DNA of 64,000 nt from Linderina pennispora (Eukaryota; Kickxellomycota; Kickxellomycetes; Kickxellales; Kickxellaceae), in assembly GCF_002104995.1 (NCBI RefSeq), contig NW_024468255.1:1-64000 (forward strand), written 5' to 3'. Each line of letters begins with the position of its first letter. Positions within the stretch are counted from its first letter, which is position 1. Positions 30,827-55,804 of the stretch are shown in pieces. A model generated the notes under the pieces. That model did not search any database and was not told where the DNA came from. It saw only the letters and a list, made by a program, of their open reading frames with translations. Both the position numbers and the translations under genes were made by a program.

Positions 30827-33800
30827 ATGTTCAACTCGAGCAGCTCTTTTGGCGGCGGAGGCTCGAGTGGCAGTGGATTCGGCGGGTTCAACCAGGCCAG
30901 CAACACCACTGCGACGCGTACCGGCTTTGGCGCGTTCGGGCAGAGCAACAACACTGGAAATACGTTTGGTAATGCTAGTGGGGCGTTTGGCCAGTCAAAC
31001 ACGGCGGGTGGGTTTGGAAACACGCCTGGTGGTTTTGGTCAGGCCAGTAGCAGCGGCACGACTGGATTTGGGCAGTCGGCGGCAACCGGCTTTGGGCAGA
31101 GGACTGCTGGCACTGCGGCTACGGCTGGGGCATCATCAGGCATGTCGACGTTCGGGCAGTCGGCCGCAGGCGGGTTTGGTCAGCAGACTGGTGGTGGGAT
31201 GTTCGGTCAATCGTCGGCCGGCGGAGGAGGATTTGGCGGTGCTGCGGCCACCAGCACGTTTGGCGGTGCACTTGGCAATACCAACACGGGTACAGGTCAT
31301 ACGCCGTTTAAGGAGCACATTGAGCGCAATCCCACAGGCGCCAAGGAGGCCTACCAGAACATCTGCGCGATGAACGAGTATATGAACTTTTCTCCTGAAG
31401 AACTGCGGTTGCAGGACTACCTTGCCAACCGGAAGCAGCCGGGTGCGGCCGGAGCTTCGGGCTTTGGAACCGCCAGCACCGCTGGGTTTGGGCAGACTAG
31501 CGCTGCTGGGGGATTCGGCAGCACCGGCAGCACTGGGTTTGGCCAAACCTCGGCGGCAGGCGGCGGCGGTTTTGGTCAGACTAACACAGCCACAGGCTTT
31601 GGCCAGACCAGCAATGCGCCAGCATTTGGCCAGGCGAACACCAGCACCACTGGGTTTGGCGCAAACACGTTTGGCCAGTCGAATACGGGCGGAGGGTTTG
31701 GCCAGGCCACCAACACTGGCGGAGGGTTTGGTCAGAACAACGCGACGACTGGGTTTGGCGCCAATACCGGCTTTGGCGCTGCCACCAACAAGCCTGCCTT
31801 TGGGCAGAGCGCAGCAACCGGATTTGGCCAGACAAGCACGTCGGGCGGGTTTGGTGGCGGTGCCTTTGGAGCCGCAGCAAACAAGCCGGCGTTCGGGCAG
31901 ACCAGCGGCACCGGGTTCGGGCAAACCTCTACGGCCACAACAGGCTTTGGAGGCGGCAGCTTTGGATCATCGGCAGCGCCTGCGACCACTGGGTTTGGCG
32001 CAGCAACGACAACTGGGTTCCCTCAGTCAAGCACGACAGGGTTCGGCCAGGCACCCAACACTGGGTTTGGTCAGACCAGCACTGCAGGCACGGGCCTGAC
32101 TTTTGGTGCTGCGGCGAACAAGCCGACATTTGGCGGGTTTGGCCAGACCAACACGTCAGCACCGGCTGCATCCGGTGGGCTGTTTGGAGCGTCAACTGGA
32201 ACCACCGGAGGCTTTGGCCAGACAAACACCAGCACTGCCGGCGGTCTGTTTGGATCCAATACCAACGCCGGTAACGCTGGCGGGGGTCTGTTCGGATCTA
32301 ACGCCAACGCGGGCACTACTGGAGGAGGGCTATTTGGCAACAAGCCTGCTACTAGCGTGGCAGGCGGCGGGCTGTTTGGGTCAAATGCCAACACGGCTAC
32401 CAACACTGGAGGTGGGCTGTTTGGCTCCAACGCGAACACAGGGACCACCGGTGGGGGACTGTTTGGCACCAACAGCACCAACGCGGCTACCAACACTGGC
32501 GGCAACCTCTTTGGGGCCAACAGCGCGAACATGGGTAACACTGGAGGAGGGCTGTTTGGCACCAACAACACGGCCACCAGCACCGGCGGAGGGCTGTTGT
32601 TTGGTAGCAAGCCCGCTACTGGGGCAACAGGCGGCGGCCTCTTTGGCTCCAGCAACACTGCCAGCACCAATACTGGCGGCGGCCTATTCGGTTCCAGCAC
32701 CAACACCGGAGGCGGCCTCTTTGGTGGTTCTAAGCCTGCGTTTGGGCAGCCAGCAGCTGGCACGGCTGGCGGTGGTCTGTTCGGCTCCAGCACCAACACC
32801 GGTGGTGGGCTATTTGGTGGCATGCAGAACCAGCAGCAGACGCCCAGCATGCAGCAGCCGCTTCAGCTTGGGCAGCTGTCGGCCCAGATCGACAAGCAGC
32901 CGTACGGCACCAGCTCGCTGTTTGACACGACGAAGCTTACTGGAAAGGCCGGGCTGTTCACCAAGACCGGCAGCAGCCATCTGACCGCCACTCCCCTGCG
33001 CTCATCGATCGTCGAGCAGTCCACCGTCGAGAAGGAGCGCGAGCTCAAGAAGCGGGGCCTGAGCCTGCACTCGATTAGCTCGCCGCAAACCGCAACCAGC
33101 AGCCGCCTGCGCTCACGTGGATTTGTTGCGCCGACTACGGCCAAGCGATCGTCACTGGGCATCTCGGCTGCGGGCATCTCGTCGCCGTCTGTTGCCACTG
33201 CGCATGTGCCGGCCATCACTGGCTCTAGCGCTGACAACTCGCGTCGCGAGCCTGTTGCGCTGTTTGGGCGGGATGGGTTCTTGTCGCCGGCTCCTCAGAC
33301 TCCTCGGTCCAGTGTCAAGCGGCTGGTTATCAACCGCAAGCCTGCTGAGAGCGGATTCACTGCTGCCTCCTCGTCGCCGGTGGCTGCAGCAGTTGCTGCA
33401 GTTCCTGCCGAGCCTGCCAGTCCGTGGACAGGAGTGAAGCGGACGCAATCAATGGCGGCTGACCCCGAGGAGTCGCCGGCTGCTGTTGTTTCGGCGCCAA
33501 AGGTTGTGTCCCAGGCAGAAGCCGAGAGCGATGCCGAGAGTGATGCTGAGAGCGATGCTGAGAACGACGATGGCGAGTACTGGATGGCTCCGAACCTGGC
33601 GGAGCTGCGCAGCATGCCTGAGCAGAAGCTGCGGGCGGTCAAGGAGTTTGTCGTTGGTCGCAATGGCGTGGGTCAGGTCCGGTTTATGGAGCCTGTTGAC
33701 CTGACCAGTGTTGGCTCGCTTGGATCTATTGCGGGCGGAGTTGTCCTGTTCGACGACCGCGTGTGCACAGTTTACCCTGACGAGACCAACAAGCCGCCTC

Positions 33801-36800
33801 GCGGGCAGGGTCTGAATGTCCCTGCCATCATCTCTCTTGATGACTGCTGGCCCAGCGACCGCTCGACAGGCAAGCTTATCACAAAGGTGGACGATGTCCG
33901 TGTGCGCAAGCATATCCGGCGTCTGAAGAAGGCTGAAGACACCGAGTTTATCAGCTTCATCGACGGCACTTGGGTCTTCCGCGTGGAGCACTTTTCGCGG
34001 TATGGACTGGAGGACGACATGTACGATGATGATGACGACGGAGATGACGACGACGATGACGACTATGTGATGGTGAAGGCTGGAGAGGAGAACAAGAAGC
34101 AGGGTTTTTCTAAGGCCACCGCGGCATCAGCGGTAGGAGCGCAGGGCCATACGGGCGGCTCGCGTGCGGTGGCCCAATCCCAGCCCAAGGAGGAGAGCAT
34201 CTCGCCAGATGGAGATGCGGATGCAGATATGGATATGGAGAGTGGAGGAGTGAGCAGCAGTGGCGAGCAGGGCATGGCAGCCACGCAACAGCTGCCAGCG
34301 TCAAGGGGACGTGCCCCGGCTATGCGTGCATCGCTGTTTCCAAAGCAAACTTCAGGCATGGACATGGGCCAGACGATCGATGGGCATGCTGCTGGTTCTT
34401 TTGGGCGGTCCGCAAAGCATAGGCAGGATGATGGGGCGGAAAGCCAACGGAGGCCATTGGAAGCCCTGGCCAGGAATGGCTTTGACCGCGCCGAGCCCCA
34501 GACCGCCAACCCATTTGTGCTAAGGGCAAAGCCGGCACCTAAGCAAGGCCGTCGGGCTCGTGGATTTGGCAGCCGGGACAATATGTCGGGTGTCACTTCA
34601 GCGACAGGCGCTCCATCGCTCGCAGCGCCGTCAATCGATGCGCTGGATTTGCCATCACCCAGCAAGTACTTGCGGACCAGTGAGCCGCGAATCGTACGTG
34701 ACCTGCTGGCCCAGCCCCAGCCGTACTCTGCGTCTGTCACCCATGGCCGGTCTGGTGTGGGTGCCGATGCCGGAATGATGATGGCACGTAGCTTCCGCGT
34801 CTCGTTTGGCCCGCAGGGGCAGCTTGTGTACCTCCAGAGCGGCGGCTCCAAGGCCAAAGGCGGCGCATCGACAGCGCTTGTTATTGACAGCCTCTCTCGT
34901 CACATCCATGCAGCACCTGGCAAATCGTCGACTATTGCTCAAAGCACAGACGCCGACGGTTCAGACGCTATCCTGGAAACCCAGCGGCAAATGCACATGA
35001 GCCTGATTCGCGCGCAGTGGGAGCACGCCCACATTGAGTGGTCGGTGGCGACAGCTTGCCCAGCAGTGACATTTCGTGACGGAACGACTATCGCGTCGGT
35101 GGTCGGAGCGCTGTCTCGAATCGACAGCGACGCATCAAAGGCGATCCCCCAAGAGGAGTCGCGCATTCTGGAGCTGGCGGCGGTGCTGTTTGACGAGCTG
35201 GCGGCGGAAGAGAACGAAGACGAGCTCACCAGCGAGCAGCTCGCACGCATCCGCACTGTTCGCCGCAGGCAAGGCTTGACGCGCTGGCTGATGTCAGCGG
35301 TCCACGAGTCAGTGCAGAGCGACCTGGTCCATGCTGGGGAATCCGCATCGCCATCGGCATCATCGGTGTTTGCCCTGCTCTCTGGAAACAAGATCGAATC
35401 CGCGTGCCTGTCAGCAATCTCTCACCGCGACTACCGCTTGGCGACTCTGGTCTCGCAGTGTGGCAGCGGTGCTGTTGGCGGAGGCGGCAGCGACACGCAG
35501 TTCCAGGAGTTTGTGCGCACGCAGCTCCATCGCCTCGAGGAAGTCGGCGACAGCAAGACCTTCCCCAGCAGCTATCGCCGTGTGTACGAGCTGCTGTCAG
35601 GCAATGTCGAGTGGGAGGCATCGCAGCTTCCAAGATCGTCGTCGTCGGGCTGCTTTGTGACGCGTGGTCTTGACTGGAAGCGCGCGTTTGGCGTGACTCT
35701 GTGGTACGCGCAAGCGCCAGCGGACCCTATTGCAGGGGCTGTGCGGCAGTATGAGCGCATGTTCAAGGAAGGCTCTCTGTCGTCGGGCACTGCGGTGCCG
35801 TCGCCGATTGCTCCTCCGCTGCCGTCGTGGCTCTTTGCTGATGGCGAGCTCTCGCAGCGCACCAGTGCGCTGGCCGAGTTTGAGCAGGCAGACTCCCATT
35901 TGGCCAAGCGAGCCGTCACTCTGTCGCGGAGCAGCGTGTGGGATGCTGCGTTCCAGCTGCTGAAACTCTTCAGCGAGCCGACCATGCCTCTGGAGAAGGC
36001 GCTGGTATCCGAGTCATTCACTGCTGCGCGCGGCGACTCGCGTCTAGCCACTGTTATGGCGTGGCTGCTCAGTGCTGTCAGGCAGTGCCGTGGATTCGAG
36101 GATGCTCGGCAAGTTGCTGGCGGCAAGCTTATATCGCTTGCTTACGACAGCATGCTCGCGGGGTGGGCGTTCCAGCTCGAGACCCTCGGTCTGTGGCAGT
36201 GGTCGTGTTATTTGCTGCTGCAATTGTCGAGCGACTTGCACAAAACCCACGCGATCCGGGCGCTTCTTGACCGCTCGCTGACCAGCTCGACCCCAAACGG
36301 TGCCCTGGTACCGGCTGCGGTCAGCGAGCTGCTGCCAAAATCCTCTCTTGGCGCCGGTGACATGGGCAGTATTGAGCAGCAGGTGCGGTTTGTACGCAAC
36401 GACCTGCATCTTCCTGAGCTGTGGCTGTACGAGTCGTACGCTAACCGCAGCCGGTATGATCGCCAGCTGATTGAGGCCCATTCTGGCACCCAGCAGCTGG
36501 CCTTCCTTACCGGCCGCCGTGCTCAGACATCGTCACCGGCTGTGGTTGCGGCGGCGCCGCTCTTCAACCCAGGCATCTTTGCCGGCAGCCAGCTGGCGCA
36601 GTTCGCCAGTCCTTTGGCCACGGTTGCGCTGGATTCGGCCGCTGTGGCCGTGCTGCGTGAGGTCGCCTGGCTGATTGGCGCCCGCCGTCTGTCGTCAGCC
36701 CACCTGCTGGTCATGCAAAAGATCGCCCCTGATGCCATCCTGCGCGGCGACTACCGGCTGCTGTCCAAGGTGCTTTCATATCTGGATCCGGCTGTTACCA

Positions 36801-37363
36801 GCCCGGGCGGCAGTGGTGCGTGCGTGCCGGGCGAGAGCTGGATGTGTGGCGGCCAGGTGTACAAGTCGTTCCTGGTTGCCGTCGAGGACCTGCCAGCGAT
36901 CCTGAAGCAGCTTGCGGCAGCGAAGCAGATCGACGAGCAAAGCAGCACTGTGCAGCAACTGACCGAGCAGGTCAAGCAGATCTACTCGCAAATGGCCACG
37001 CTGCTGTCGTCTCTGCCGTCGCTGTCGGCCAGGTTCGAAGCCTTCTCTAAATCAATGGACGCGTCGCTTGGGTTCTATGACGGCACGGAGGTGTTCTGGT
37101 ACTCGGCCCGCGAGGCCCGCGAGCTGCGGATCAAGTATTCTGTCGCTATTTCCGAGATGGCCACCGTTGTCACTGGCCAGGTCCAGCAGCTGGAATCATG
37201 CTTCCCTGGCCTCGCTTCTAGCAGCAGCCGTGCTTCGCCGCTGCACCTGCAGACTGCCATCCCGGCTATGCTGCCGCTGGCCGAGGACATGCGCATCCTG
37301 CGCACATACCAAATGGCCCAGACGTGCTTTGACTCGCTCGTTGCTGACGAGCTTGAGGCTTGA
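30827..37363 (+). CDS. NUP98-NUP96: Nucleoporin Nup98-Nup96 precursor (Nup145/Nup189 type)
   Basis: 2178 aa in a single exon. Residues 1-155 and ~210-690 are Gly/Thr/Asn-rich FG and GLFG repeats, the permeability barrier of the pore. Between them (~158-205) is a GLEBS-like motif (AMNEYMNFSPEELRLQDY), the docking site for Gle2/Rae1. Residues ~910-1060 are the Nup98 autoproteolytic domain, with the cleavage triad H1055-F1056-S1057 (HFSRYG); cleavage after F1056 would release a Nup98-like FG protein and a 1122-residue Nup96. The latter begins with an acidic Asp run and has an alpha-helical scaffold that joins the Y-complex. Identification from order of domains and motif; secure. Confidence 0.95.
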   Translation: MFNSSSSFGGGGSSGSGFGGFNQASNTTATRTGFGAFGQSNNTGNTFGNASGAFGQSNTAGGFGNTPGGFGQASSSGTTGFGQSAATGFGQRTAGTAATAGASSGMSTFGQSAAGGFGQQTGGGMFGQSSAGGGGFGGAAATSTFGGALGNTNTGTGHTPFKEHIERNPTGAKEAYQNICAMNEYMNFSPEELRLQDYLANRKQPGAAGASGFGTASTAGFGQTSAAGGFGSTGSTGFGQTSAAGGGGFGQTNTATGFGQTSNAPAFGQANTSTTGFGANTFGQSNTGGGFGQATNTGGGFGQNNATTGFGANTGFGAATNKPAFGQSAATGFGQTSTSGGFGGGAFGAAANKPAFGQTSGTGFGQTSTATTGFGGGSFGSSAAPATTGFGAATTTGFPQSSTTGFGQAPNTGFGQTSTAGTGLTFGAAANKPTFGGFGQTNTSAPAASGGLFGASTGTTGGFGQTNTSTAGGLFGSNTNAGNAGGGLFGSNANAGTTGGGLFGNKPATSVAGGGLFGSNANTATNTGGGLFGSNANTGTTGGGLFGTNSTNAATNTGGNLFGANSANMGNTGGGLFGTNNTATSTGGGLLFGSKPATGATGGGLFGSSNTASTNTGGGLFGSSTNTGGGLFGGSKPAFGQPAAGTAGGGLFGSSTNTGGGLFGGMQNQQQTPSMQQPLQLGQLSAQIDKQPYGTSSLFDTTKLTGKAGLFTKTGSSHLTATPLRSSIVEQSTVEKERELKKRGLSLHSISSPQTATSSRLRSRGFVAPTTAKRSSLGISAAGISSPSVATAHVPAITGSSADNSRREPVALFGRDGFLSPAPQTPRSSVKRLVINRKPAESGFTAASSSPVAAAVAAVPAEPASPWTGVKRTQSMAADPEESPAAVVSAPKVVSQAEAESDAESDAESDAENDDGEYWMAPNLAELRSMPEQKLRAVKEFVVGRNGVGQVRFMEPVDLTSVGSLGSIAGGVVLFDDRVCTVYPDETNKPPRGQGLNVPAIISLDDCWPSDRSTGKLITKVDDVRVRKHIRRLKKAEDTEFISFIDGTWVFRVEHFSRYGLEDDMYDDDDDGDDDDDDDYVMVKAGEENKKQGFSKATAASAVGAQGHTGGSRAVAQSQPKEESISPDGDADADMDMESGGVSSSGEQGMAATQQLPASRGRAPAMRASLFPKQTSGMDMGQTIDGHAAGSFGRSAKHRQDDGAESQRRPLEALARNGFDRAEPQTANPFVLRAKPAPKQGRRARGFGSRDNMSGVTSATGAPSLAAPSIDALDLPSPSKYLRTSEPRIVRDLLAQPQPYSASVTHGRSGVGADAGMMMARSFRVSFGPQGQLVYLQSGGSKAKGGASTALVIDSLSRHIHAAPGKSSTIAQSTDADGSDAILETQRQMHMSLIRAQWEHAHIEWSVATACPAVTFRDGTTIASVVGALSRIDSDASKAIPQEESRILELAAVLFDELAAEENEDELTSEQLARIRTVRRRQGLTRWLMSAVHESVQSDLVHAGESASPSASSVFALLSGNKIESACLSAISHRDYRLATLVSQCGSGAVGGGGSDTQFQEFVRTQLHRLEEVGDSKTFPSSYRRVYELLSGNVEWEASQLPRSSSSGCFVTRGLDWKRAFGVTLWYAQAPADPIAGAVRQYERMFKEGSLSSGTAVPSPIAPPLPSWLFADGELSQRTSALAEFEQADSHLAKRAVTLSRSSVWDAAFQLLKLFSEPTMPLEKALVSESFTAARGDSRLATVMAWLLSAVRQCRGFEDARQVAGGKLISLAYDSMLAGWAFQLETLGLWQWSCYLLLQLSSDLHKTHAIRALLDRSLTSSTPNGALVPAAVSELLPKSSLGAGDMGSIEQQVRFVRNDLHLPELWLYESYANRSRYDRQLIEAHSGTQQLAFLTGRRAQTSSPAVVAAAPLFNPGIFAGSQLAQFASPLATVALDSAAVAVLREVAWLIGARRLSSAHLLVMQKIAPDAILRGDYRLLSKVLSYLDPAVTSPGGSGACVPGESWMCGGQVYKSFLVAVEDLPAILKQLAAAKQIDEQSSTVQQLTEQVKQIYSQMATLLSSLPSLSARFEAFSKSMDASLGFYDGTEVFWYSAREARELRIKYSVAISEMATVVTGQVQQLESCFPGLASSSSRASPLHLQTAIPAMLPLAEDMRILRTYQMAQTCFDSLVADELEA

Positions 37364-37555
37364 ATAGTTTTTTTCTCGCTTTTAAATACATCATTCATTT
37401 GGTAATTCTTGATCTAATCACTAAAAAACTTCGAGGGCGTTTTTTTCTGCGCTAAAGATCCAAAAGGCATGCTTGTCCCCGGTTGGTTCTGTTCTAGCTA
37501 ATTTGCCTACTCCACTCCTTTTTTATATAGCCATATTAACTCTTATTGTCAAAAC

Positions 37556-40288
37556 ATGGGCAAGTCGAACGGCAGCAGCAAGCAGTCGGCACTGAAGCGG
37601 CTGCGCTCCTCTCTCTCGGCAGCCGGCCTGACCGGCCCCAAGGCGCATGTCACCAAAAAGGACAAGAAGCGCGGGGTAACAAAAGCCAGCGGCCGCAACG
37701 AGGACCGCAAGCAGAAGCTCAAGGCGATCCAGTCAGCAATGAACCCGTTCGAGCTGCAAGTGAACCGCAAGAAACTAAGCGTTTTGGGCTTGAAGCGCAA
37801 GGACGAGCAAGTCAACGTGGCCGTGGCCCGACAGAAGGCCATGGAGAAGCGCAAGGCAACAATTGGCAGCGAGCGCAAGAACCGCAACAAGGCCGGCGCC
37901 TTTATCGATCGGCGTATTGGCGAGAACGACGCAAAGATGGATCCTGAGGAGAAAATGCTGCAGAGATTTACGCTTGAGCGGCAGAAGCGCAGCCGCAACT
38001 CATCCATGTTCAACCTGGAGGACGACGATGACGTTGAGGGAGCGATTACGTCCTTGACACATTTTGGCCAGTCTCTGGATGACATGGATACGTTTGACGA
38101 TATGGTTGGCAGCGACGATGAGGGCACGGGGGCGATTGACCGGGACACTGTTGCTGGTGACCACTTTGGTGGATTTGAGCAGGAGGGCCCAGCGCGCAAG
38201 AAGACAAAGGCCGAGGTCATGCAGGAAGTCATTGCCAAGAGCAAGCAGTTCAAGCACGAGCGCCAGCTGGCCAAGGAGCAGGACGACGAGGTGCGCCAGG
38301 AGCTTGACGACGACTTCGCCGCCGTCCGTGCACTGCTGTTTGACGGCGACGACGATTCCAAGCCTATGATGAAGGCTGCCGATGGCGAGGACAACGATAT
38401 GGATCAGTCGTACGACGCTGCAGTGCGCGAACTGATCTTTGAACAGCGGGCCCGTCCGCAGGACCGCCTTAAGACCGAGGACGAGCTCATCCGTGAGGAG
38501 AAGGAAAAGCTCGAGCGGGCAGAGCGCCACCGGCAGCGGCGCATGGACGGCTTGCCCTCCGACTCAGAGCCCGAGTCAGACGACGAGGATGGCCTCAAGA
38601 AGGGGTATGCTGCGCAGAGCAACCGTGCGCCTGAGGCCGACGATCTTGGTGATGATTTCGCTGTGGCCGACAGTGACGATGAGGGCAATGCCGCCGATAT
38701 TCAGCTTGGAGCCGGCCTTGGTGCCGAGGAGTCGGAGGATGAGGATGATGAAGATCGCAGTGATGGGTCAGATGAGGACAGTGATAGCGAGGACAATGAC
38801 GACGAGGGCAGTGACCTTGGTGACAGCGATTCCGAGACAGAGTCGGAGCCAAAGAAGGTAAAAAAGGTTACCAAGGCCCTAAAGGTCTCTGCCGACTCAA
38901 AGCCATCGTCATCCGATGATGCCCTGCCGTTCACATTTACTGCGCCAGCCGATTACGACCAGTGGCTCGAAATCGTCGGCGACTACACACTTGAGCAGCA
39001 GCTGGTGGTGATCAAGCGTCTACGCACGCTGTATCACATTCGCCTCTCACCACAGAACAAGGAGAAGCTCTCCAACTTGTGCATCATTCTGCTGGAGCAC
39101 CTTGCCGTTCTGACTGAGCAGGATCCGCCGGTACCCATGGTGATCATTGACGAGATCTCGAAGCACATTGGCGAGCTCATCTCTATTGATGTTGACCGTA
39201 TTGGCGAGCACTGCCGGCAAACAGTCATTGAAATCCACATGCGCATTCTGGCAGCGATCAAGGGCTCAGCGGGCACTGCCGAGAAGCACGTCACTGCCCC
39301 AGCGGTTATGCGCCCGTCGGATGTCGCGCTGATGCGCCTGTTTGTCTCGCTGTTCTCATCGTCTGACCGGTACAATTCGGTGGTCACACCGATGCTCATG
39401 GCAATGTGCCAGTTCCTGTCGCAGTACACGTTCACTGAGGTCAATGACTTTGCTGCTGGCCTGGTTCTGGTTGGCATCATCCATGAAACCCAGCGTTTGT
39501 CGCGGCGCTTTGTCCCTGAGACGCTTAGCTTTTTGTTCGCGACCCTGTCTGCCACTGTCTGCGATCCAGCCAACTCGAAGGACTGGAACGGCCAGTTCCC
39601 GCTGTCGAAGCGGCAGCGCGAGGCATATGGAGCCTTGTGTATTTCTGACAAGTCGTCGACTGTAGCGCCGGTCACCTGGGCATGGCTGTCCGCTACTTTT
39701 GGCGATGAGGGCGAAATTACCACCGCACAAAAGCTAGGTGTTCTGCGATCGTGCTTGCTGCTCGCGCGCAAGTACATTGACGTGTATTTTTCCACACCTG
39801 CATTCATCGAGCTGTTTACCCCGCTGCAGGCGATTCTCGGCCAGGTCTCGGAGCGCACCGCAGATAAGGCACCTAAGGAGATTGGCGACCTCGTAAACGA
39901 GGTTCGGTCGTATCTCGACGAACAGCTCGAGCAGTCGCATGCCTCGCGGGCACCACTCAAGATGCAGTACCACAAGCCGCTCGCCATCCAGTCGATTACA
40001 CCAAAGTTCGAGTCCAACTACAGCATCGATGCGCACTACGATCCAAACCACGATCGTAACGAGATTCTCAAGCTGCGCCGCCAGGTCAACAAGGAGAAGC
40101 GCGGTGCCGTCCGCGAGCTGCGGCGTGACGCCCAGTTCATCCAGGCTGAGCGGCTCAAGGAGATGCGTGAGAAGGACAAGACCTATGATGCGAAGATGAA
40201 GAAGGCGTGGGGTGTTTTGGAGAACGACCAGAGCGAGATGAAGAAGCTCGACAAGCTGCGTATCAAAGAGCAAAAGGGCAAAATTTAG
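37556..40288 (+). CDS. NOP14: Nucleolar protein 14 (90S pre-ribosome/U3 snoRNP factor)
   Basis: 910 aa, single exon. Basic N-terminus, then the family signature NPFELQVNRKKLSVLGLKRK (residues ~62-81) and RNKAGAFIDRRIGEND. The middle is very acidic (long Asp/Glu/Ser tracts at ~340-450), followed by the helical Nop14 core and a basic C-terminus (RLKEMREKDKTYDAKMKKAW). Nop14 works with Noc4, Emg1 and the U3 snoRNP in 40S subunit maturation and 18S rRNA processing, in the nucleolus. It lies 192 bp downstream of the nucleoporin on the same strand. Confidence 0.93.
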   Translation: MGKSNGSSKQSALKRLRSSLSAAGLTGPKAHVTKKDKKRGVTKASGRNEDRKQKLKAIQSAMNPFELQVNRKKLSVLGLKRKDEQVNVAVARQKAMEKRKATIGSERKNRNKAGAFIDRRIGENDAKMDPEEKMLQRFTLERQKRSRNSSMFNLEDDDDVEGAITSLTHFGQSLDDMDTFDDMVGSDDEGTGAIDRDTVAGDHFGGFEQEGPARKKTKAEVMQEVIAKSKQFKHERQLAKEQDDEVRQELDDDFAAVRALLFDGDDDSKPMMKAADGEDNDMDQSYDAAVRELIFEQRARPQDRLKTEDELIREEKEKLERAERHRQRRMDGLPSDSEPESDDEDGLKKGYAAQSNRAPEADDLGDDFAVADSDDEGNAADIQLGAGLGAEESEDEDDEDRSDGSDEDSDSEDNDDEGSDLGDSDSETESEPKKVKKVTKALKVSADSKPSSSDDALPFTFTAPADYDQWLEIVGDYTLEQQLVVIKRLRTLYHIRLSPQNKEKLSNLCIILLEHLAVLTEQDPPVPMVIIDEISKHIGELISIDVDRIGEHCRQTVIEIHMRILAAIKGSAGTAEKHVTAPAVMRPSDVALMRLFVSLFSSSDRYNSVVTPMLMAMCQFLSQYTFTEVNDFAAGLVLVGIIHETQRLSRRFVPETLSFLFATLSATVCDPANSKDWNGQFPLSKRQREAYGALCISDKSSTVAPVTWAWLSATFGDEGEITTAQKLGVLRSCLLLARKYIDVYFSTPAFIELFTPLQAILGQVSERTADKAPKEIGDLVNEVRSYLDEQLEQSHASRAPLKMQYHKPLAIQSITPKFESNYSIDAHYDPNHDRNEILKLRRQVNKEKRGAVRELRRDAQFIQAERLKEMREKDKTYDAKMKKAWGVLENDQSEMKKLDKLRIKEQKGKI

Positions 40289-40465: not shown

Positions 40466-41455
40466 TCATAGTCGAAGGGACCTGTAAAGTGTACATTGTG
40501 GTGAAGCATCGTAAGCCTGATTGCATGCAGTGCTCCTTACGAGCTTTGCTGATCCTGTGAACTGCTTCAACTCATTCGATGTGCTACCTTGAACCTCGTA
40601 CTCTCGGCGAAGACCATCCTGAGACAGCCTCTTTAGCCACACTTGCAGGTACCCTTCATGATGGAATAGGCACTGGTACATGGGGTAGAGCAAAACTATC
40701 CAGATAGCGACAAGTGTCAGAAGCAAGTCGTACGATGCTGCAAGTCCGCACTGCCAGTCATGTAAAGCGTAGTCAGGAAGGTAACAATGCGCTAGTGTCA
40801 TTTTCTGGTAGTCAAGCAAGTGGAGGATAACTGTGGCAAGCGACTCGTGGTACTCATTGAAGCAGATTTGGATATTGCGACAGCACCAGGTGATGACAAG
40901 GCACAGCGACCACATCCCCCAATTCAATGCAATGCAAGTGTAGCGGAATCCATACACATAATGGCATGACTCGTAGAAGTCTAGGTATATGACAGTAAGG
41001 CAGTCTGGGACAGCCTGTGCGACGACACAAAAGACAGTCAGGGATATTGCAAGTCCACCAACTGGTGTCAACATGCTCCAGCTGCGATATGTCTTTCCCT
41101 GAACAAAGATGCGGTCCAGCGCATAGTTTCGGAACACAACTGTACAGAAGAATACAAATCTGCACAAGGCACGCAGCCAAATAATCCATCCGCAACAGGC
41201 CCGGAACAAGCAGTCGCCCAGCATGAGGACGCTGCCCATGAACAAGCCCTAAAACCATCCAAGACCCAAGAGATACATAATTGCGACAAGCGTAAGGTTG
41301 CATGCCTTTAGTGGAAGGTACTGGGGGTTGACCAATGCGTATATCAGCATCAACGCCGTCACACAGTAGAGAACCAAACTGCTGTACACAATAATATGAT
41401 CTGGTTGACCTAAAAGATCCCGTTTGTGGGGGACTCGCTTGTAATTGCGGCCCAT
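40466..41455 (-). pseudogene. 7TM receptor-like membrane protein with one in-frame stop
   Basis: Starts MGRNYKRVPHKRDLLGQPDH and continues in the same frame past a single TAG at 41249-41251 (LGLGWF-stop-GLFMG) to 40466, 329 codons in all. About seven hydrophobic segments are visible (IIVYSSLVLYCVTALMLIYA, ACNLTLVAIMYLLGLGWF and others). The part ALCRFVFFCTVVFRNYALDRIF resembles the R-N-x-x-L-D/R-hF segment of fungal 7TM proteins that carry an RGS domain. No RGS domain follows, so it may also be truncated at the 3' end. Apart from the one stop the frame is clean, implying recent inactivation or readthrough. Confidence 0.5.
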
Positions 41456-41516
41456 TTCAATATCAAGTTTATGCAGTGTCCCTTGTAAAGTTGGGATATA
41501 AATCTTTATCTTTACC

Positions 41517-41526
41517 TATATATAAG
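41517..41526 (+). promoter_or_regulatory. TATA-like element upstream of the Fanzor gene
   Basis: TATATATAAG ~80 bp upstream of the Fanzor ATG at 41605. Plausible core promoter, though the region is AT-rich. Confidence 0.4.
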
Positions 41527-41604
41527 ATTTTATAGTCCAAAAAGTGTCCGACCGTCCGCTAGAAATTATTTAGGCACCCTGATCTCAGTGTGCTCACCCC
41601 GCCG

Positions 41605-43437
41605 ATGCTTGCAATCTACAACAAGCTGGCACCAGTCCTTAATGCCTATGGTGCCAAGTACAGATTCGCCAAAGGCAGCCGATACTATGATGCCAAGGTG
41701 AATCCACTTAAGCATCTGCGTGCATACATTCGTCTATGCCAGCTTATCGAGAATGAGCAGCTTGGCAAGTCTCCCCCCCCCCAATGCTTGCCTCTGCGGA
41801 CATCATGGATCCCAGGCCATGTGCGTTTGGACAAGCAAATAATCAATCAGGTGTTTATTTCGAAAACACGCGAGCAGGTTACCAAGATCAACGCAGCAAA
41901 GAGGGCAGCAATAGAGGCAAGGAAAGCAGCAGAAAAGGGCGAAAAATTGGCCGAGAAGGCTGCACACGAAGCAGCAAAGATGCCATCAGATGAAACAGAG
42001 GCCGCTGCAGCAACTGCAGCAGTAGCGGCTGATTCGCTTGCTGCTGCATCGGCGACAGTAGCAGACACTGTTGCAGCACTTAACAATGCATATGCACCAG
42101 CACCCCCAGTCTGTGCACACGACCCGGTCCAAGGGATCACACAACCTGTGTGGGATGTGTGGGGCCGGGTCGCAGATCTAACATCAAAGCCATTTAAGGC
42201 GCATGGTGATAGAAAATTCCACGGAATGGCAACAACAGATGGTGTAACGATATGCATTTTGTTGCAAGACAAGATATCCAAGGCTGATGGTGCAGTAGAT
42301 GCTGATGGTGCAGGAGGTGGTGCTGCAGGAGGCAATGCTACAGCTGATTGTCGCCATATCCACCAGATCCCACAGCCAGAGCTGCAGAATCTGAAAGGCC
42401 GCTGTGTATTCATCGATCCAGGTCGGAGCGATTTGCTATACATGATGCACGAAAATAGCAGCAATGGGAAAGAAGGTGAAAGAATGCTCTACCGCTACAC
42501 ACGGCAGCAGCGCAATAAGGAGCTCAAGCTGCGCCACTATGACAGGATTCACTGGGCTACAAAGGATTAAGTCCCAGAAGATGCTGTCCGCAGAGCAGAG
42601 GCAGAGCTTTCCAAGCACTGCTGCCGGACCCTTAGCCCAGCAAAATTCCGTGCCTACGTTGCTACCCGTGCATCTGTGCGGTGTGTCCTAGCACCGTTTT
42701 ATGCCAGCACGATGACAGCGCGAAGGTTACCAGAGCAGCAGCTCACTAAGTCAAACAAGCAGCACCAGAGGCGCTGGAAGGCCCATCCGGGTGTCGGGAC
42801 CAGTCCCAAGGTGTACCCGCTTCACCGCAAGTTGCGCCTTGATTCATTCATGAACCAGGCCCGTGCAGACCACAGGCTTGCCGCGAAACTCCGGAGCAAG
42901 TTTGGTCCAGATCCAGTGCTGACCATGGGCAATTGGAGTGCGCCGATGGCCCGACACCATGCGCCGATCCGTGGCAAGGGATGGCGCGACAAGTTCAAGC
43001 ACCATGGCTTTGAAGTCTATCTGATCGACGAATTCCGGATATCGTCGATGTGCCCGTTCTGCTGCGAAAAGTCACTGCAGACATTCCGGCATGTTCCCAA
43101 TCCGCGGCCCTACCAGAGATCGAAGAACCCAACTGTGAAGTGCCATGGCCTTCTCCGCTGTACAAGCGAGTCATGTAAGCGGGCCATGGCACAATACAGA
43201 CGAGCCTATTCGTCTCGGCTCTTGAACCGCGATTTCGCAGCAGTTCTAAACTTCAGACTCGTTTTCCAGCCACTCTGTGATTCAGGAAGTATTCCTGAAC
43301 GGTTCTGTCGTTCTACGGCCATTGCTGCCAATGCTTCTGGCACCACTCTGGCAACAAAGAGGCCGCGCAAGAAGCGTGCAGCAGCAGGCGATTCTGCTGC
43401 TAGCAGCAGCGAGCCAGCGCTGAAGCGCCTACGCTGA
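41605..43437 (+). pseudogene. Fanzor (eukaryotic TnpB-like RNA-guided nuclease) with one in-frame stop
   Basis: One reading frame of 611 codons broken only by TAA at 42568-42570. RuvC-I: VFIDPGRSDLLY with D at 42415. RuvC-II: VYLIDEFRISSMCPFC with E at 43030. A zinc-finger with CPFCCEK and CTSESCK follows, then RuvC-III: NRDFAAVLNFR with D at 43231. All three catalytic acids are therefore intact. The C-terminus is a basic tail (KRPRKKRAAAGD) fitting a nuclear signal. An Ala/Glu-rich insert lies in the N-terminal half. Just after the stop, VPEDAVRRAEAELSKH continues the family pattern, so the stop is a recent nonsense change or a readthrough site. A C10 homopolymer near 41776 is a possible slippage point. 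Fanzors are DNA nucleases guided by an RNA from the flank of the gene, spread inside eukaryotic transposons; no terminal repeats were identified here. Confidence 0.88.
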
Positions 43438-43600
43438 GCAGGTCACCAAGGTGGGAGATGTCCATGGTCGACATTGCACCAACAACCATCCGACACGTTC
43501 AAATGACCGGTTCGCCGTGATGCCCTTATCGACGTGTCAACCCATGCTGACTAGCAGCCGAGCTCGCATCGCGAGCAGAGCAATTCTAGTAGTAAATAAT
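43438..43600 (+). other. Hairpin-rich tail, candidate Fanzor guide RNA
   Basis: The 160 bp right after the Fanzor stop contains several self-complementary stretches: CACC/GGTG (43444-43453), ATGTC/GACAT with a 7-nt loop (43458-43474), and GCTCGC-ATC-GCGAGC (43562-43576). Guide RNAs of TnpB/Fanzor loci usually start near the 3' end of the gene and extend past it to the element boundary. GC content here is higher than in the AT-rich DNA that follows from ~43600. A candidate only; no covariation can be tested. Confidence 0.35.
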
Positions 43601-44637
43601 AAGAAATAGGCGATCTAAAGGTAGGGCAGGTGTAAATGTAAACTTTTGGTCATGCTAACATAACATTGCCACTTTAAGTGCATTCGCAATACAATCGCAT
43701 CCAATAGCAGACAGCGGGAAGAGAGGAGCGAAGCATGAAACTGTGATAGTCTATTAGGGCAATCCATGTAAAACTATCGTAGACCATGCCGATCAGTTTC
43801 AGTCAACAATGTTCCCGTCACCACTCCTCATTCATCTTGTGGAGGGAATCGATATTCTTAAAATAGTTAGATTTAAGGTTAATATACTAGAAAGGAAGGG
43901 CAGTGTTCTGTTGATTTTCCATACTATCTCGTTTTTGAAAAAATATTTTACCTATGCAAAATACCACGGCTGGTGTTGTTTAGCCTTTAAGAAGAGGGAT
44001 AAGAGTCCACAATTGGTTAAAGCCTATATTCGAAATTCTATGACTGCGTCTTGCTTTAGAGAGCTTTCTACTTTTTAACTCTCCACCAGATGGTATCATA
44101 ATCCATAGTTATTATATCCTTCCTAGAACTGTGATTCAAGTAAATACTGGAATTGCCAGCATATATAAAGAAACCATATGGCGACCTATTCAAGCTCAAT
44201 CCCTCTCGGTTCTTGATGAAAAGCGCACTTATGTATGTTTGGTTTTGGACTCAGTCCAAGTGGTCAGCCATCTTAGACCGCAAATAGCCAATAAATGCAA
44301 TTATCCTGTTATAGTAGATATTGGCCACTACTTTGTCACCTGGCCAATGTAGCCAGATTGCAGCTGTCATTATTCATTGGTGAAACGCTCTGAAGTTGTT
44401 CCTGTTCCTTTTTTCATAATATTTAGTATTCAATCAATAATCAATAGCAAGCAGCACTTTGCACTGCAGGACATGCATGCTATGGGCTAGATATCTTATG
44501 CCCAATCGCCGATTTGCTAACCTCTCTGCCAGATTTGAAGAAATTTGTGTTGACAAGAGTGGCTGGTCAGTTTTGTATTCTAGTGGCAGATCGCTAAATC
44601 GATCTATAACTCTGGGAGAATGGTGTGAAAAGAAAGC
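43601..44637. other. AT-rich intergenic region
   Basis: About 1 kb with two short plus-strand ORFs (43809-44078 and 44131-44352) that have protein-like composition but no recognised domain. They could be decayed mobile DNA flanking the Fanzor. Confidence 0.45.
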
Positions 44638-47600
44638 TTACGCAGCAATAGCTACTGGTATCGACGATGCGGTGCTTGGGCTTGGGTCGTCAAACAGCAG
44701 CGGGCGCTTGGTCGGCTTGATGTTGCGGTCATAGTCCATCAGCAGCTTGAACATGCCAGTGCCAATCGGCATTTGCTGGCCCATGATGATACGCTCAGAC
44801 ACACCGTGCACCATGTCGCGCTTGCCAAAGACAGCGGCGTCGAACAGGTGGTCGGTTGTCTTTTCAAACGACGCCAGCATCATGACCGAGTCATTCATCT
44901 TGGCGATACCGTACCGGGTAATGCCGAGAATCTCGCCCTTGTAGCACATTAGATCACCCAAGAGCATCAGATGGCGCTGGTCAATGACGATCGAGTATGT
45001 GGTGAAAATAGCCGCCAGCTCCTTGATCATCTGGGTGCGTGCCGCCTCAATACCCAGGATCTTGAGGTTGTCCATGATGTGGTTGCTGTGCGTATATCGT
45101 CCATCGACACCATCGGTGTTCATCGACTCGAGCAGGCCGTATCCCTCCGCAGACAGTTTTACGCCGGTGCCCTTTTCCTTCTTCATAATGACTGCCCGAT
45201 GCACACTGGGCACACCATGCACAATGATGTTGGGCAGGGCACGTCTCATGACCTGTAGCTGGTAGAACAACTGCTTCTGGTTGCCTGACGACACATACAC
45301 ACTGAGCTTATTGGGCGGCTCCATGTGCACATTATTTCCAATCTTGAGCTTGGGCGCGCTTGCGATTGCATTGCAGATGTCGGCCAGGTCGATCTCCAGC
45401 TGCAGCTTCTTGATGACATCCATATCGATTGTGACGCCAAGATAGCAGCTGGTCGCCGTATACACCTCCTCGATGCTCTGAGTGATATCTCCTAGCAATG
45501 TGCGCTCAATACGACCCTTGACGATACGCGCCGACGACTCGCTCTCTTCATTGATCAGCTTGCATTCGACAATAGGCGTCGAAATATTCTTGGCTGCGTT
45601 GATGATCTCCTTGATGCGCGGCACACCCATCGACACGTTCATGCTAGCAATACCGGCGAAATGGAACGCCTTTAGCGTCATCTGCGTGGTCGGTTCTCCA
45701 ATACTCTGCGCTCCAACGGCTCCAACCGCACTGCCAGGATCGGCACGCGATCTCTGGTACTTGGTAATACACAGGTCAAGGAACTTTTCCAGGCATATGC
45801 GGGTGACAACGAGTTTGTTGTCGACGATCCTGCGCGCCGCAGATGGTGCATTGGCATCAGCCTTACCCAGTGACCACGAAAGTATGTCTTCCAAGCTCGC
45901 CTCCACGGAATCAGCTGCCTTCGCTGCCTTCTTCCCACGGCCCTTGGGCTTAGCGGACTCGCCGGTCAGCTCAGCGGGGATGTCGTGGTATGGCTTAAGC
46001 TTGTATGCCGCACGCAGCTCGCCAAGACGTCCCGCCAGCGACTGGTGAACATACTCCTTTATCTCGTCTCGCCAGTACGAATTGGTCCAGTCAACAAACC
46101 GCGGCTCCAGGATGACCTTGTCGACGATATGCTTGATCTGGAATGGTGCCAGGTGCTCTTCATCTGGCGATACCTCGGTGGTGTTTCTGATGAACGTCCA
46201 GTTGTGGTCAAAGAGAACAGGAACACCATCACCCTCGAGGCGGTAGGGATCAAGCGAATCGCCGCCGTACTCAAACTGCACCACTGTGCCCGACGAGTTG
46301 CGCACAGATGAATCATACTGTACGCGCAGGTCCTCAAACGCCTTGACAAGACGGCGCTGCATGTAGCCTGTCTCAGCGGTCTTAACAGCTGCGTCGACAA
46401 GACCCTCACGGCCGGATCCCGCATGGAAGAAGAACTCAGTCGGGTACAGGCCGGTGTAGAAACTGCTGGCAGCGAATCCCTTCGCCTCGGGCGTGCGCGA
46501 GCGCTTCAAAAAGTGCGGCAGAGTACGGTCAGTGAATCCGTCGGCAATACGCGTGCCGCTGACAATCTGCTGGCCGAGACAGGCAACCATCTGGCACACG
46601 TTGACAGGGCTTCCCTTGGACCCGCACTGGGCCATGATCAGTGGAGCATTGAAACGGTCAAGTTCCTCCATACAGATCATACCGGCATTATCACGCACTG
46701 CATTCAGTTCTTTAGTGATGATGGCATCGAGTGTCTTCGCCTGATCACACCCTGGCAGGGTCTCAAGAACACCGCGCCGGCTCTCATCAATGAACCCGTC
46801 ACACGTGCTGTACGCGTCGGCGATCAGCTTGTCCTTGCGGTCTCTCAAGATCTTGCCCGGAGTTACATCTGACAACCCGATCGAGAAGCCCTGGTTGCAA
46901 CTCCAACGCGCAGACAGCTTGGCCAGGCGGTTCATGATCGCTGCAGCTTCCTCCGTGCCATAGTCGCGCAGCGCAACAAAGAAGATCGACTTCTTCTTAC
47001 CGTCACCAACGACGCTCTTGTCAAGCGAACCGCACAGAAGCTCACTGTTACGAATGATCATGTAGCCGTCATTGGGGCAGAGATCAGGGATGGCAGAGCG
47101 CTTGAACATCTTGGTCTTGGTCTCCAAGTTGATGGACATCTTGGTTGCGTAGTTGGGCCGCATCAGGACGTTGATGATCTGCTTGCCCGACCAGAGCCGA
47201 CGCGGCTTGATGATGCACGGCGGCGGAATGTCGATGAACACGTTGGCATCAAAGCAATAAGAGACGATCTGTGTGAACTGAGACCGATCGTAGAAGCAGT
47301 CCTTCTGCGTGATCAGGAACGCGGTGGTAATGAAATCCTGGGTGGCTCCAATGATGGGCTCGCCATTGCGCGGCGTCACCAGGTTGTTGCGAACGCCCAT
47401 CAGTTCGCGTGCCTCGACACGTGCCTCTTCAGTCTGCGGCAGATGCAGGTTCATTTCATCTCCGTCAAAATCGGCGTTATAGGGAGTGCACACACACTCG
47501 TTGAAGCGGAACGTGCGCCAGGGCATCACGCGCGCCGAGTGAGCCATAATCGACAGACGATGCAGAGACGGCTGGCGGTTGAACAGCACAACATCGCCGT

Positions 47601-49043
47601 TGACCAGATGGCGCTCAACGATGTCGCCGACACGCAGATTGTCGGCAGTCTGCTCGCGGATCGACCGAATAAGCATACGCTTCTGGCCGCTGGAGCCAAA
47701 GACAACAAAGTTGGCACCAGGATGCACATCGGGACCGTTGCGCACGTTTTTCTGGAGCCGCTTCAGGTTGTGCGGCGTCACGCGTTCCGGGTAGGTCAGG
47801 ATCTTCGCCACACGCTGCGGCACGGCAACCTCGTCGATGCGCATGTTGGGATCAGGCGAAATGACAGTACGACCACTGAAATCGACTCGCTTTCCTGACA
47901 AGTTACCACGGAAACGACCCTGCTTACCCTTCAAGCGCTGGGTGAAGCCACGGATTGGCTTGCCCACCACCGAAATGGGCACGCCAGGCACATCGCTGTT
48001 AATGTACATGGCGATGGCCAGGCCAAGATAGTCCCACTGCTCCATGATGTTGATCGTGCCAGCGCCCTGCTTCATGCCAGTCTCAATGAGCGCGTTGGTA
48101 AAGATGATCTCTGACAGCTTGACAGTCAGATCGTCTTCGTTGCTGGCACCGTCCTGAGCGACCGACGGACGAATGCAAACTGGCGGAACTGGCACGCTGG
48201 TCCACAAGAACAACTCCGGACGGCCGCTGTCCGGGTTCATTCCCATCAGCTCGCAGTCCTCGTCCGAAATATTCTTGAACAGCTGGTACACACGCAGCGG
48301 AGTCATCTCCTCGGTCTGCGCCTTCTCCACAAACGGCTTCAGCTGTGGATCGGCTTCTACCGCATTCGCGAGCGTCTTTCTGTAGTCCTCCTGCTCGTCG
48401 GCCGTGCGCTTCTGGCGGTACTTGTCATGCACAATCTTCAGTGGACCACCCTTCTTCACCACGCCATTGGTTGCCAGACAGTGTGGGCAATATGTGACCT
48501 TCTTGCAGCGGTCATTGACTGCCTTTACGATCAGGCGCATTTGCAGCCCATCGATTCCAGGGGCCCTCAGCCTGCGCAAGAACATGCGCCGATCCGACTC
48601 CTCAAGCATCACGCGTGCGCACGTCTTGCAAATATCCTGCAGAATCGTCTGCGTCATCTTGAAGTAGCCAAAGTGGAACACAGGCACGCACAGATCGATG
48701 AATCCCCAATGGCCGACACAGTCCGACATGTTTTGTCCGCACGTCTCGCAAATGTCGTTCTTGTTCGACACACCCAGCCGCGGATCCAGTACGCCATTGG
48801 GGACAGGCTTGCGAGTCTCGGCCGTGTAGAGATCGCGCTGGTTAATCACCACCTCCGCCGCCTGACGAATATCGTGTGGGCTCGGAACTCCAAACTGAAT
48901 GCAATGACTACGCCAGAGAAAAATCAGGGCAGGTCAAAGGGTTAGTGACAACTGGCCGGTCGGCGTTGTGGCAGCTGGCTGTGCGGCCGCGGCTGCACTA
49001 CTTACATTTGCTTCGGTGCCTGTGCTAGCACCTGCCCCTTCAT
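44638..49043 (-). CDS. RPC1: DNA-directed RNA polymerase III largest subunit (two exons)
   Basis: Exon 1 is 49043-49006 (MKGQVLAQAPKQ plus two bases), the intron is 49005-48908 (GTAAGT...TAG, 98 nt), and exon 2 is 48907-44638; the spliced frame is exactly 1435 aa. The junction restores the expected start KQIHCIQFGVPSPHDIRQA. Downstream: zinc-binding CETCGQNMSDCVGHWG; the active-site loop NADFDGDEMN (47450-47479), whose three Asp bind the catalytic Mg; the RQPSLHRLSIMAH segment; and the bridge/trigger region (QFEYGGDSLDP and GEPTTQMTLKAFHFAG). It transcribes tRNA and 5S genes. The absence of a CTD heptad tail and the length mark Pol III rather than Pol II. Very secure. Confidence 0.95.
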
Positions 49044-53426: not shown

Positions 53427-55685
53427 TCACAACTGCGAGTATCCATCATGTGCAGCCCTTTGCTCGCTGGCATTCTCCTCGTCATGCAGCCGGCGGACAT
53501 GGCGCAGGACATCTTTGCGTGTAAGCAGACCAGCTAGCTGGCCATCCTCGTTTTCCACCAGAATCACCCGCGGGCCAAGCTTGCGGAATATCTCGAGTAC
53601 CGTATCGGCTGCGGTGCGTGGGCTGACTGTAATCGGGCTTGTGTTCACCAGAGAAGAAAGATTGGTAACTGAGGATGGGTGCTGCAAATCGCTGTCGAGT
53701 GTAGCCTCAGCAGTATACGGGCTTGTCTCAATCGTGCTCTCGCCAGAAGAGCTGCTGCCAAAGGAAAACGTGGCTGTGTCCCCAGCAGTCCGCACGCTGA
53801 GCAGCGCTCGTACAAGCGCATCGCGCTGCACGTATCCAACTAGCCGTACATCATGGATGTTGTCAACAACTGGGAACCCTTTGATATTCTGTGTATCATC
53901 CAGCAGTTGGCGCAGCTCGCCGTACTGAATTCCGTTGGCTGGAAGCATTTGCACATCCATGCGCATAATTGAAGCCACAGGCGTGTCAAGCAAGTCGACC
54001 TCTTCGTCAAAGAACGGCAGGCCATTGAGCAGAATCAGCTGCTCTGAAATCCCTCCCTCGACGATTGCATCACCAATGACGCGAGCAACCATCACCACAA
54101 TCACAGTTGGCACAATGAAGTTCAGGGCACCCGTCAGCTCATACATGATCACTACAACGGCCACTGTAACCTTCGTGACACCGCACAGTGCAGCCGCCGC
54201 ACCCAAGAACGCATAGGTGGCGGGTGTAATGCATGGAGTATCGGGCGCGCATTGTGAGAACAGTGCCGACTTGGGATACGCCCTGTGCATCGACTGGGCA
54301 ACAATTCCGAGCATGCGGCCGAATGTCGCACCAACCGCCATGGATGGCACAAAGATACCGCAGGGGATCTTGCATCCGTATGCACAGATCGTGCCCACTG
54401 CCCGGATAAGAGTAGCCATTAGCAAGCCCCAGATCACCCACGAGCTGTTCTCGGCCACACAGATGCCACCCCAATCGCCCTGCTTGCACTCGCGCAGCAG
54501 ATAGGATAGTAGCTCGCCCATGTCCTGCTGAGTGTACTTGTTGGTAAATGTGATAGCAGTTGTAACAAGCGCCAGCACTGCAACCTCTTTTACCACGTGG
54601 TGCGCTAGGTACTTTTTGCGGAACGCAGTAACCTTGAGGTTGAGCCGGATGCAGACGCCACCGTAGACGCCGCCGAATACGCCCAAGATCACGAAAAACA
54701 GGATCTCGAAAAAGTGCCAGTCGCGGTCGTACGTGGCCTGGAACATTACCAACTTGCCTGTGCGGAACGGGTTCATGGCCTGCAGACTGACTGTGGCTAT
54801 CAGAGCACAGAAAAAGCTCCTCCACATCGTCTTTAGCGGGAAATGAGAGCTCAGGTCTTCGAGCGAAAACAGAACACCGCCGATCGGCGACCCAAAGGCG
54901 ACAGCGACGCCAGCCGCTGCCGCCGCCGAAATGATCTCGCGCTGCCGGGCGTAGTTGCGCCGGTACTTTGAAAAGTTTCGCGACACAACGTTGCCAACAC
55001 AGCAGCCCATGTGGACAGCAGGCCCCTCCTTGCCCACACTCAAGCCCGATGCAACAGCCATTGCCAGCCCGATGCTCTTCATCATCAGTGTCCATCCGCC
55101 CATAAATCCTCGGATGACAAACCCGCCCAGTATCGATTTGATTTCAGGCAGGCCAGAGCCAGCTGCCAGCGGCGCGTACTCGCGGACCAGGAGCGCGCAT
55201 GTGGTTGCGATTAAGGTGCCTATTACGACAAATGCAAGCCAGCGCACAAACACATAGTCGTGGCCCAGGATCACTCGGTCCCACGTAATCCAGTCCTCAC
55301 AGACATCCGAGTCTGGTGTCTCCCAGCAGCAAAAATTTTCGTTCAACCACCACGCAGACGAGCACACACCGAGCTTGGTGTCGCTGAGCCACTCTGTGAT
55401 GATTGATATCAACGCAGTGTTGACCCCAATGAACATGCCAACCAGCAGAACCACAATCCATGCGACTGTCGACTCGTACGCCAACCGTAGCCAAGCCAGC
55501 GGGCCAGAGCCGAGGTGTGTCCATAGTGTATGCAGGCGCCGCCGCTCCTTGGAGTCGTTTTCTATCCAGTCGACAGTGGTAAACTCGTCAAAGCGTGCTG
55601 TTGACTTGGGCTCCTGCGAGGGCGCTGCTCTGCGGGTTAGCTGACCGCTGTGTCGATTATGTAGCGACCGGGTTGTTGAGTCCAT
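53427..55685 (-). CDS. CLC-type voltage-gated chloride channel/exchanger
   Basis: 752 aa from the ATG of MDSTTRSLHN; an upstream GTG in frame lies in the leader. CLC core with the anion-pathway motifs GSGLPEIKS, GKEGPAVHMG (containing the gating Glu) and GIFVPSMAVGA, plus SPIGGVLFSLEDLS. Two CBS domains lie in the cytosolic C-terminal part (from ~residue 560: MRMDVQMLPANG and PRTAADTVLEIFRKLG). Similar in layout to yeast Gef1, which acidifies Golgi/endosomal compartments by Cl-/H+ exchange. The gating Glu in GKEGP is kept, as in exchangers and most channels. Downstream of the RTA1-like gene on the same strand (119 bp apart). Confidence 0.9.
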   Translation of the reverse strand: MDSTTRSLHNRHSGQLTRRAAPSQEPKSTARFDEFTTVDWIENDSKERRRLHTLWTHLGSGPLAWLRLAYESTVAWIVVLLVGMFIGVNTALISIITEWLSDTKLGVCSSAWWLNENFCCWETPDSDVCEDWITWDRVILGHDYVFVRWLAFVVIGTLIATTCALLVREYAPLAAGSGLPEIKSILGGFVIRGFMGGWTLMMKSIGLAMAVASGLSVGKEGPAVHMGCCVGNVVSRNFSKYRRNYARQREIISAAAAAGVAVAFGSPIGGVLFSLEDLSSHFPLKTMWRSFFCALIATVSLQAMNPFRTGKLVMFQATYDRDWHFFEILFFVILGVFGGVYGGVCIRLNLKVTAFRKKYLAHHVVKEVAVLALVTTAITFTNKYTQQDMGELLSYLLRECKQGDWGGICVAENSSWVIWGLLMATLIRAVGTICAYGCKIPCGIFVPSMAVGATFGRMLGIVAQSMHRAYPKSALFSQCAPDTPCITPATYAFLGAAAALCGVTKVTVAVVVIMYELTGALNFIVPTVIVVMVARVIGDAIVEGGISEQLILLNGLPFFDEEVDLLDTPVASIMRMDVQMLPANGIQYGELRQLLDDTQNIKGFPVVDNIHDVRLVGYVQRDALVRALLSVRTAGDTATFSFGSSSSGESTIETSPYTAEATLDSDLQHPSSVTNLSSLVNTSPITVSPRTAADTVLEIFRKLGPRVILVENEDGQLAGLLTRKDVLRHVRRLHDEENASEQRAAHDGYSQL

Positions 55686-55804
55686 TATGAAAAAGGAAAT
55701 AGTTAATTTCTGAGCCACTCTGGACCGTGGGCGGACCACCACCCGCCTTCAGAATTATCAGCAAATAGCATATTTATTCGAGTATGGCTCAAAAAACTGC
55801 GCTC

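Follow-up and report, generated by a model that had tools for sequence, protein, structure and literature searches.

The Fanzor-like reading frame at positions 41605-43437 of the 64,000-nucleotide stretch of DNA analysed here (the window), from Linderina pennispora, a fungus of the Kickxellales, very probably belongs to a non-functional deletion derivative of a high-copy, canonical Helitron that carries a Fanzor1 gene. Fanzors are CRISPR-like, RNA-guided DNA cutters, and Helitrons are rolling-circle jumping genes. The whole element copy occupies 41509-43589 on the plus strand (2081 bp), with limits taken from homology to 20 other copies, from its ends and from its length. A complete element measures about 3.35 kb, and the 18 copies that have neither a large 5' loss nor a large deletion range from 3316 to 3443 bp. 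The copy sits among host genes: a xanthine dehydrogenase-like gene (12924-16991), Nup98-96 (30824-37360) and Nop14 (37502-40285) precede it, and RPC1, its neighbour on the minus strand (44641-48933, with 97% identity to a record of Linderina pennispora), a CLC channel gene (53430-55748) and a SLAC1-type transporter gene (59312-60709) follow.

All parts of the copy lie on the plus strand. Its 5' terminus (TCTTTACC..., 41509-41572) shares 64 bp at 98.4% identity with the RepHel Helitron at locus L038, and positions 41510-41572 are 100% identical to positions 1-63 of the Fanzor element at locus L009. The junction of an internal deletion of about 1.17 kb was placed by alignment at 41571-41572, with 2 bp (TA) occurring at both edges. 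The first part of the Fanzor1 remnant (41573-42567), corresponding to L009 residues from about 212, runs up to an in-frame TAA (42568-42570), and the second part (42571-43437) runs to the end stop. A 3' noncoding block of low diversity (43468-43573), a candidate omega-RNA scaffold, overlaps the hairpin of the Helitron 3' end, which consists of GCTCGC-ATC-GCGAGC, nine nucleotides and CTAG (43562-43589). The final base of the left flank is A (41508), in a short ATCTTT-type repeat, and the right flank opens with TA (43590-43591). A repeat search for terminal inverted repeats at this copy gave just short, chance-like pairs, and an Rfam search of 41400-43800 gave one weak match, on the opposite strand and under the gathering score.

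The initial annotation had described a single frame of 611 codons with one internal stop, and this was seen directly in the window sequence: the count includes the end stop, and the TAA at 42568-42570 is the sole interruption. The three RuvC acids (D at 42415-42417, E at 43030, D at 43231) align with D383, E541 and D606 of SpuFz1. The presumed zinc-finger cysteines are present at 43051, 43060, 43159 and 43174, within a finger spanning 43051-43176, and the frame ends in a basic tail. A chance frame is excluded, with long-frame paralogues showing about 91-94% protein identity, and up to about 95-96% in DNA pieces. The copy had also been called near-intact, but this description does not hold. Relative to the L009 frame, the initial ~211 codons are lost with the deleted 1.17 kb, and the ATG at 41605 corresponds to an internal residue, Met 224. 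Compared with the published Fanzor1 motif and whole protein, the window copy keeps the acids and the finger, but it differs at the first position of [TS][TS]XX-C, contains the stop and lacks the N-terminal codons. No Pfam family matched either half of the window frame. Of the states first proposed, that of a pseudogene is the one borne out by the N-terminal deletion and the internal TAA. The copy is an ordinary dead one and no lead for a working nuclease; it would at most be movable DNA and a possible source of guide RNA.

The family to which this copy belongs is large. A six-frame search with the 288-aa second half gave at least 136 genome matches, window included, a lower bound because 135 of 279 first-look candidates were scored. 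Open, stop-free frames of 798-894 aa were found at 14 of the matches. Nine of these share the N-terminus M[ND]IT and measure 860-894 aa from stop to stop, and the other five have a later start or a different beginning. For family comparison, 20 loci were fetched and their copies were aligned together with that of the window; the median pairwise identity among these 21 copies was 95.3%, and the window copy was 95.5% identical to its nearest relative among the other 20.

Against solved structures, the L009 protein matched PpFz1 of Parasitella (E = 1.9e-84), SpuFz1 (1.3e-34) and GtFz1 of Guillardia (9.7e-06). It also contains the Fanzor1 motif D-X(125,275)-[TS][TS]XX-C4 finger-X(5,50)-RD as given in the accessible part of PMC3627910, with D523, TS at 731-732, cysteines at 735, 738, 771 and 776, and RD at 794-795 (hand-counted on the alignment). 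By sequence, the long-frame members are Fanzor1 proteins. The identification of a Fanzor in a fungal genome stood once the family protein was aligned with characterised Fanzor1 members, and the catalytic acids were retained in that alignment. Pfam reported for two intact proteins Cas12f1-like_TNB alone, below the cut-off, and a database search with the L009 protein found no relative outside this genome among 7985 scored candidates. In pairwise comparison of the 14 long frames (91 pairs), the median dN/dS (NG86) was 0.334 (range 0.245-0.645), a value that the choice of these frames for length may have lowered. Nucleotide diversity in the 21 copies was 0.033, 0.035 and 0.062 at codon positions one, two and three, respectively. 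These values indicate that the Fanzor protein was under purifying selection while the family spread.

We compared the ends of the copies and their flanks with those of known Helitrons. Canonical ends consist of 5' TC and a 3' hairpin followed by CTRR, and the window copy fits this plan exactly. The 5' start TCTTTACC was present in 15 of the 19 fetched copies that have a 5' end, window included. The exact hairpin GCTCGC-ATC-GCGAGC occurred in 17 of 21 copies, the remaining four having at least one change in it. The spacing from hairpin to CTRR was nine bases, or eight in 4 of the 21, and the final CTAG was found in all but one copy, which ends in CTGG. Genome-wide, the pattern GCTYGCATCGYRAGC-N9-CTRGTA with any spacer occurred 142 times, as compared to 0 in a backward control. 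When TA was not demanded, 91 ends were listed, 11 of which carry spacers belonging to other subfamilies, and the 91 gave 75 distinct flanks; the base after CTAG was T in 74 and TA followed in 70. The base before TC was A in 78 of 88 listed 5' ends, and in 47 of 50 distinct flanks after 29 ends behind ATCTTT-type repeats and five behind a Helitron end were set aside and duplicates collapsed; at either terminus these are samples rather than full counts, and both end patterns weakly constrain an outer base. By these flank statistics, insertion takes place between A and T without target duplication. The A|T target is that of canonical Helitrons, according to the accessible text of PMC5148889. In a comparison of flanks alone, our sites fit A|T and not the TTTT|T or TT of Helitron2/Helentron. 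A genome search for an empty allele of the window site returned the window itself alone. Judged from its termini and target, the carrier is a canonical (Helitron1-type) Helitron.

Some ends go beyond a plain Helitron model, namely the 29 of 88 repeat-fronted 5' ends and the 4 of 19 copies that do not begin with TCTTTACC. The repeats in front of the 29 are extra ATCTTT- or CTTTACC-type units, for example at window 41498-41508, and these ends look as if the element start had been multiplied during insertion. The same hairpin was also seen with other nine-base spacers, some then followed by TT (C1:3026627, C1:3233754, C100:7531 and C14:20153). Such 3' ends are those of other Helitron subfamilies.

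The order of the two lesions in the window copy can be read from a sibling. At 41571 the window copy jumps from the element start to L009 element position ~1235, with about 1170 bp lost. In a search with 201 bases across this junction, 40 of 303 candidates were scored. These comprised the window, one further locus with the junction (C79:174390-174564, 97%, query bases 23-200), and 38 matches covering query bases 92-201 alone. The flanks of the window and C79 insertions are unlike on both sides. In the C79 copy, the frame stays open for 318 codons and extends beyond the TAA point (the shortest other open frame was 298 among genome matches spanning residue 1 to at least 283). Since C79 has the same junction within other flanks and lacks the TAA, the deletion is the older event and the TAA came later. 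The shortened form thus reached at least one further site. This derivative moved without a whole Fanzor, and therefore the nuclease was not needed in cis.

Three other explanations were weighed. The initial annotation had named an intron at the TAA as one finding that would overturn its reading; an intron at 42568 is ruled out because the 14 long frames continue across that point. Those 14 frames and C79 are also the TAA-free copies for which it had suggested a search. Its further idea was that the TAA is read through, or that the two halves act as a split Fanzor, and for this speak the frame and most motifs kept on either side of the stop. A C-terminal dN/dS of 0.34, obtained by comparing the window copy with the 14 long frames, might be added, but it largely reflects shared history, and with 0.36 among the 14 themselves it is uninformative on the stop. 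With the N-terminal codons gone, a whole Fanzor could not result however the stop is read. A weak alignment (13 bits) places within the lost part the SpuFz1 region that contains Q129/Q130/N133, residues that contact the target motif according to the accessible part of PMC10432273. In addition, the TAA is missing from the sibling with the same deletion. We consider readthrough or a split protein extremely improbable. An assembly or base-call error as the source of the deletion or the stop is also improbable, if not to the same degree. The data come from a single assembly, and some loci look haplotype-like (L011 and L024 are 97.4% identical over 9.7 kb), but the deletion junction recurs at a second place with other flanks, and stops occur in many other copies too. 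The window copy as a dead deletion derivative of the Helitron remains the reading that we favour.

The noncoding block next to the 3' end was conserved. At element positions 3222-3327 (window 43468-43573), pi was 0.023 and 15 of 106 sites were variable in the 21 copies; third codon positions gave a pi of 0.061, and the 608 bp preceding the gene one of 0.060. Randomly drawn sets of the same number of sites were as low in 0 of 20000 cases when taken from the 5' region and, when taken from third positions, in a fraction of 0.0001 of 20000; these fractions are no true probabilities, because the bounds of the block were chosen after the diversity profile was seen and common descent links the sites. 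Among 503 windows of the same length in the 5' region, the lowest pi was 0.041. Over the whole element the block ranks 312 of 3238 same-length windows, with parts of the coding region among the lower ones. The Helitron end itself makes up part of the conserved block. The fold of the block is barely better than that of shuffled sequences (z of -1.4), of which 19 in 200 did as well or better. Six of the 40 places scored (from 248 candidates), the window copy included, are identical over 113 bases taken from this copy, and therefore its block is unharmed. The conserved block is compatible with an omega-RNA produced from the element end and is a candidate guide RNA.

A likely source of mobility was found in the same genome. 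The Helitron Rep domain (PF14214) gave 13 genome matches, several per unit, 3 of the 13 with a stop. The RepHel unit at L038 is 5541 bp long (2439-7979 in reverse-strand numbering) and encodes Rep and PIF1 helicase domains. Its 5' end shares 77 bp with that of the Fanzor element at 98.7% identity. Its 3' end follows the same plan, with GCTTGC/GCAAGC for GCTCGC/GCGAGC, so that both partners of one base pair are altered. The genome thus contains a putative RepHel transposase with the same ends, the partner looked for in a Helitron1. The RepHel-type 3' end occurred 8 times (at most two mismatches), and in 8 of 8 cases the element 5' end follows directly, altered in its first bases in three. In seven of the eight the match extends further than the shared 77 bp and reaches at least Fanzor position 318; at C2 the terminal part of the following element alone was seen. 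Such a RepHel end running into a Fanzor start lies in the L038 tandem (reverse strand 2439-8401) and in L010, L014 and L041-L044. The right flanks of the tandem units whose far end was seen (L010, L014 and C23) are all unlike. We favour the interpretation that RepHel and Fanzor move together as a single unit, with the inner end being read through. Repeated insertion of Fanzor elements at the RepHel end is the less favoured alternative. A different Helitron Rep match at C68:198243-198650 lies in an uninterrupted frame of 1989 aa.

We propose the following course of events. The RepHel protein, an HUH/helicase transposase, would act in trans on all copies and bring them into A|T(A) sites through rolling-circle transposition, and intact copies would make Fanzor1. 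The nuclease would use an RNA from the element 3' end, with the scaffold reaching up to CTAG and the guide taken from the right flank. It would then cut matching empty sites, and repair would copy the element into them. The TAM of PpFz1 is ATN in the accessible part of PMC11423790; its agreement with the site A|TA here is suggestive only. Saito et al. 2023, in the accessible part of PMC10432273, go no further than the suggestion that cleavage by Fanzor might aid single-strand transposons. The full scheme, in which the RepHel-Fanzor tandem uses A|TA as both target and TAM, the guide RNA stops at the CTAG terminus of the Helitron, the element homes through cutting of empty alleles and deleted copies supply guides to Fanzor made elsewhere, is put forward tentatively, and we think it rather unlikely to be right as a whole. 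Another possibility, compatible with our explanation of the window copy, is that Fanzor is a mere passenger, a gene that the Helitron once took up and that contributes nothing to the spread of the element. Helitrons do capture genes (accessible part of PMC5148889), and the window/C79 derivative still moved with much of its Fanzor gone. However, the dN/dS of 0.33 among long copies, the conserved 3' noncoding block and the joining of 7 of 8 RepHel ends to Fanzor all suggest that it was kept for use, and we regard a mere passenger as unlikely, though by no means far-fetched.

The presence of Fanzors in Helitrons is already known, and the fungal version on a canonical Helitron, in tandem with RepHel, looks new. 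Helitrons are reportedly also named in a survey from 2023 that covers eukaryotic and viral Fanzors. We found no description of a Fanzor in Linderina in the open-access literature searched, nor, in the part of that literature searched, a Fanzor-in-Helitron variant like the present one. The nearest precedents, by the accessible part of Bao and Jurka 2013 (PMC3627910), are CRe-1, CRe-2 and CRe-3 of Chlamydomonas reinhardtii, which likewise carry Fanzor1 on high-copy non-autonomous Helitrons. Similar to the Linderina element, they show frequent internal deletions, 5' truncation and ends common to the Helitrons of their genome. They differ in being Helitron2 elements with asymmetric terminal repeats, two hairpins and insertion after TTTT, and in a Fanzor of five or ten exons, as compared to the single open frame, the Helitron1 ends, the A|T(A) target and the head-to-tail RepHel and Fanzor in Linderina.

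The best-scoring solved protein, PpFz1 of Parasitella parasitica (PDB 9cf0, accessible part of PMC11423790), is aligned with L009 over the greater part of its length, in four segments. It comes from a different fungal group, and about 100 of its residues (995-1095) face 26 in L009. SpuFz1/SPu-1 of Spizellomyces punctatus is likewise a single-frame Fanzor1 on an element that lacks its own transposase, and loci keeping the RNA and not the protein are reported there too. SPu-1 differs in its 33-bp terminal inverted repeats, putative TA duplications and lack of Helitron ends (accessible parts of PMC10432273 and PMC3627910). The MuDr-type elements ROr-4, PBl-3 and MCi-4 of Rhizopus, Phycomyces and Mucor also carry fungal Fanzor1 without a transposase of their own, but have terminal inverted repeats and 9-bp duplications (accessible part of PMC3627910). 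The Linderina genome brings together a long-frame, high-copy Fanzor1 beside its likely transposase, many defined insertions and a candidate guide RNA; with these resources, it can therefore be tested why Fanzors ride on Helitrons.

Several minor observations concern the genome at large. Element-end pairs lie 1.4-1.7 kb apart with no Fanzor match between them at C1:2696752-2698427, C87:437-1832 and C155:3297-4734, and these short derivatives resemble the 'ghost loci' of Spizellomyces. Three pairs of loci, each on a large and a small contig, have similar flanks: L011 (C46) and L024 (C53), L020 (C162) and L026 (C1), and C57 and C175. They are likely alternate haplotypes or duplications, with the element in both members. 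A second Linderina RPC1 record is 92% identical to the RPC1 of the window, perhaps a second copy in the genome. At window 1889-3172 a 428-aa frame contains a DDE_Tnp_4 transposase domain.
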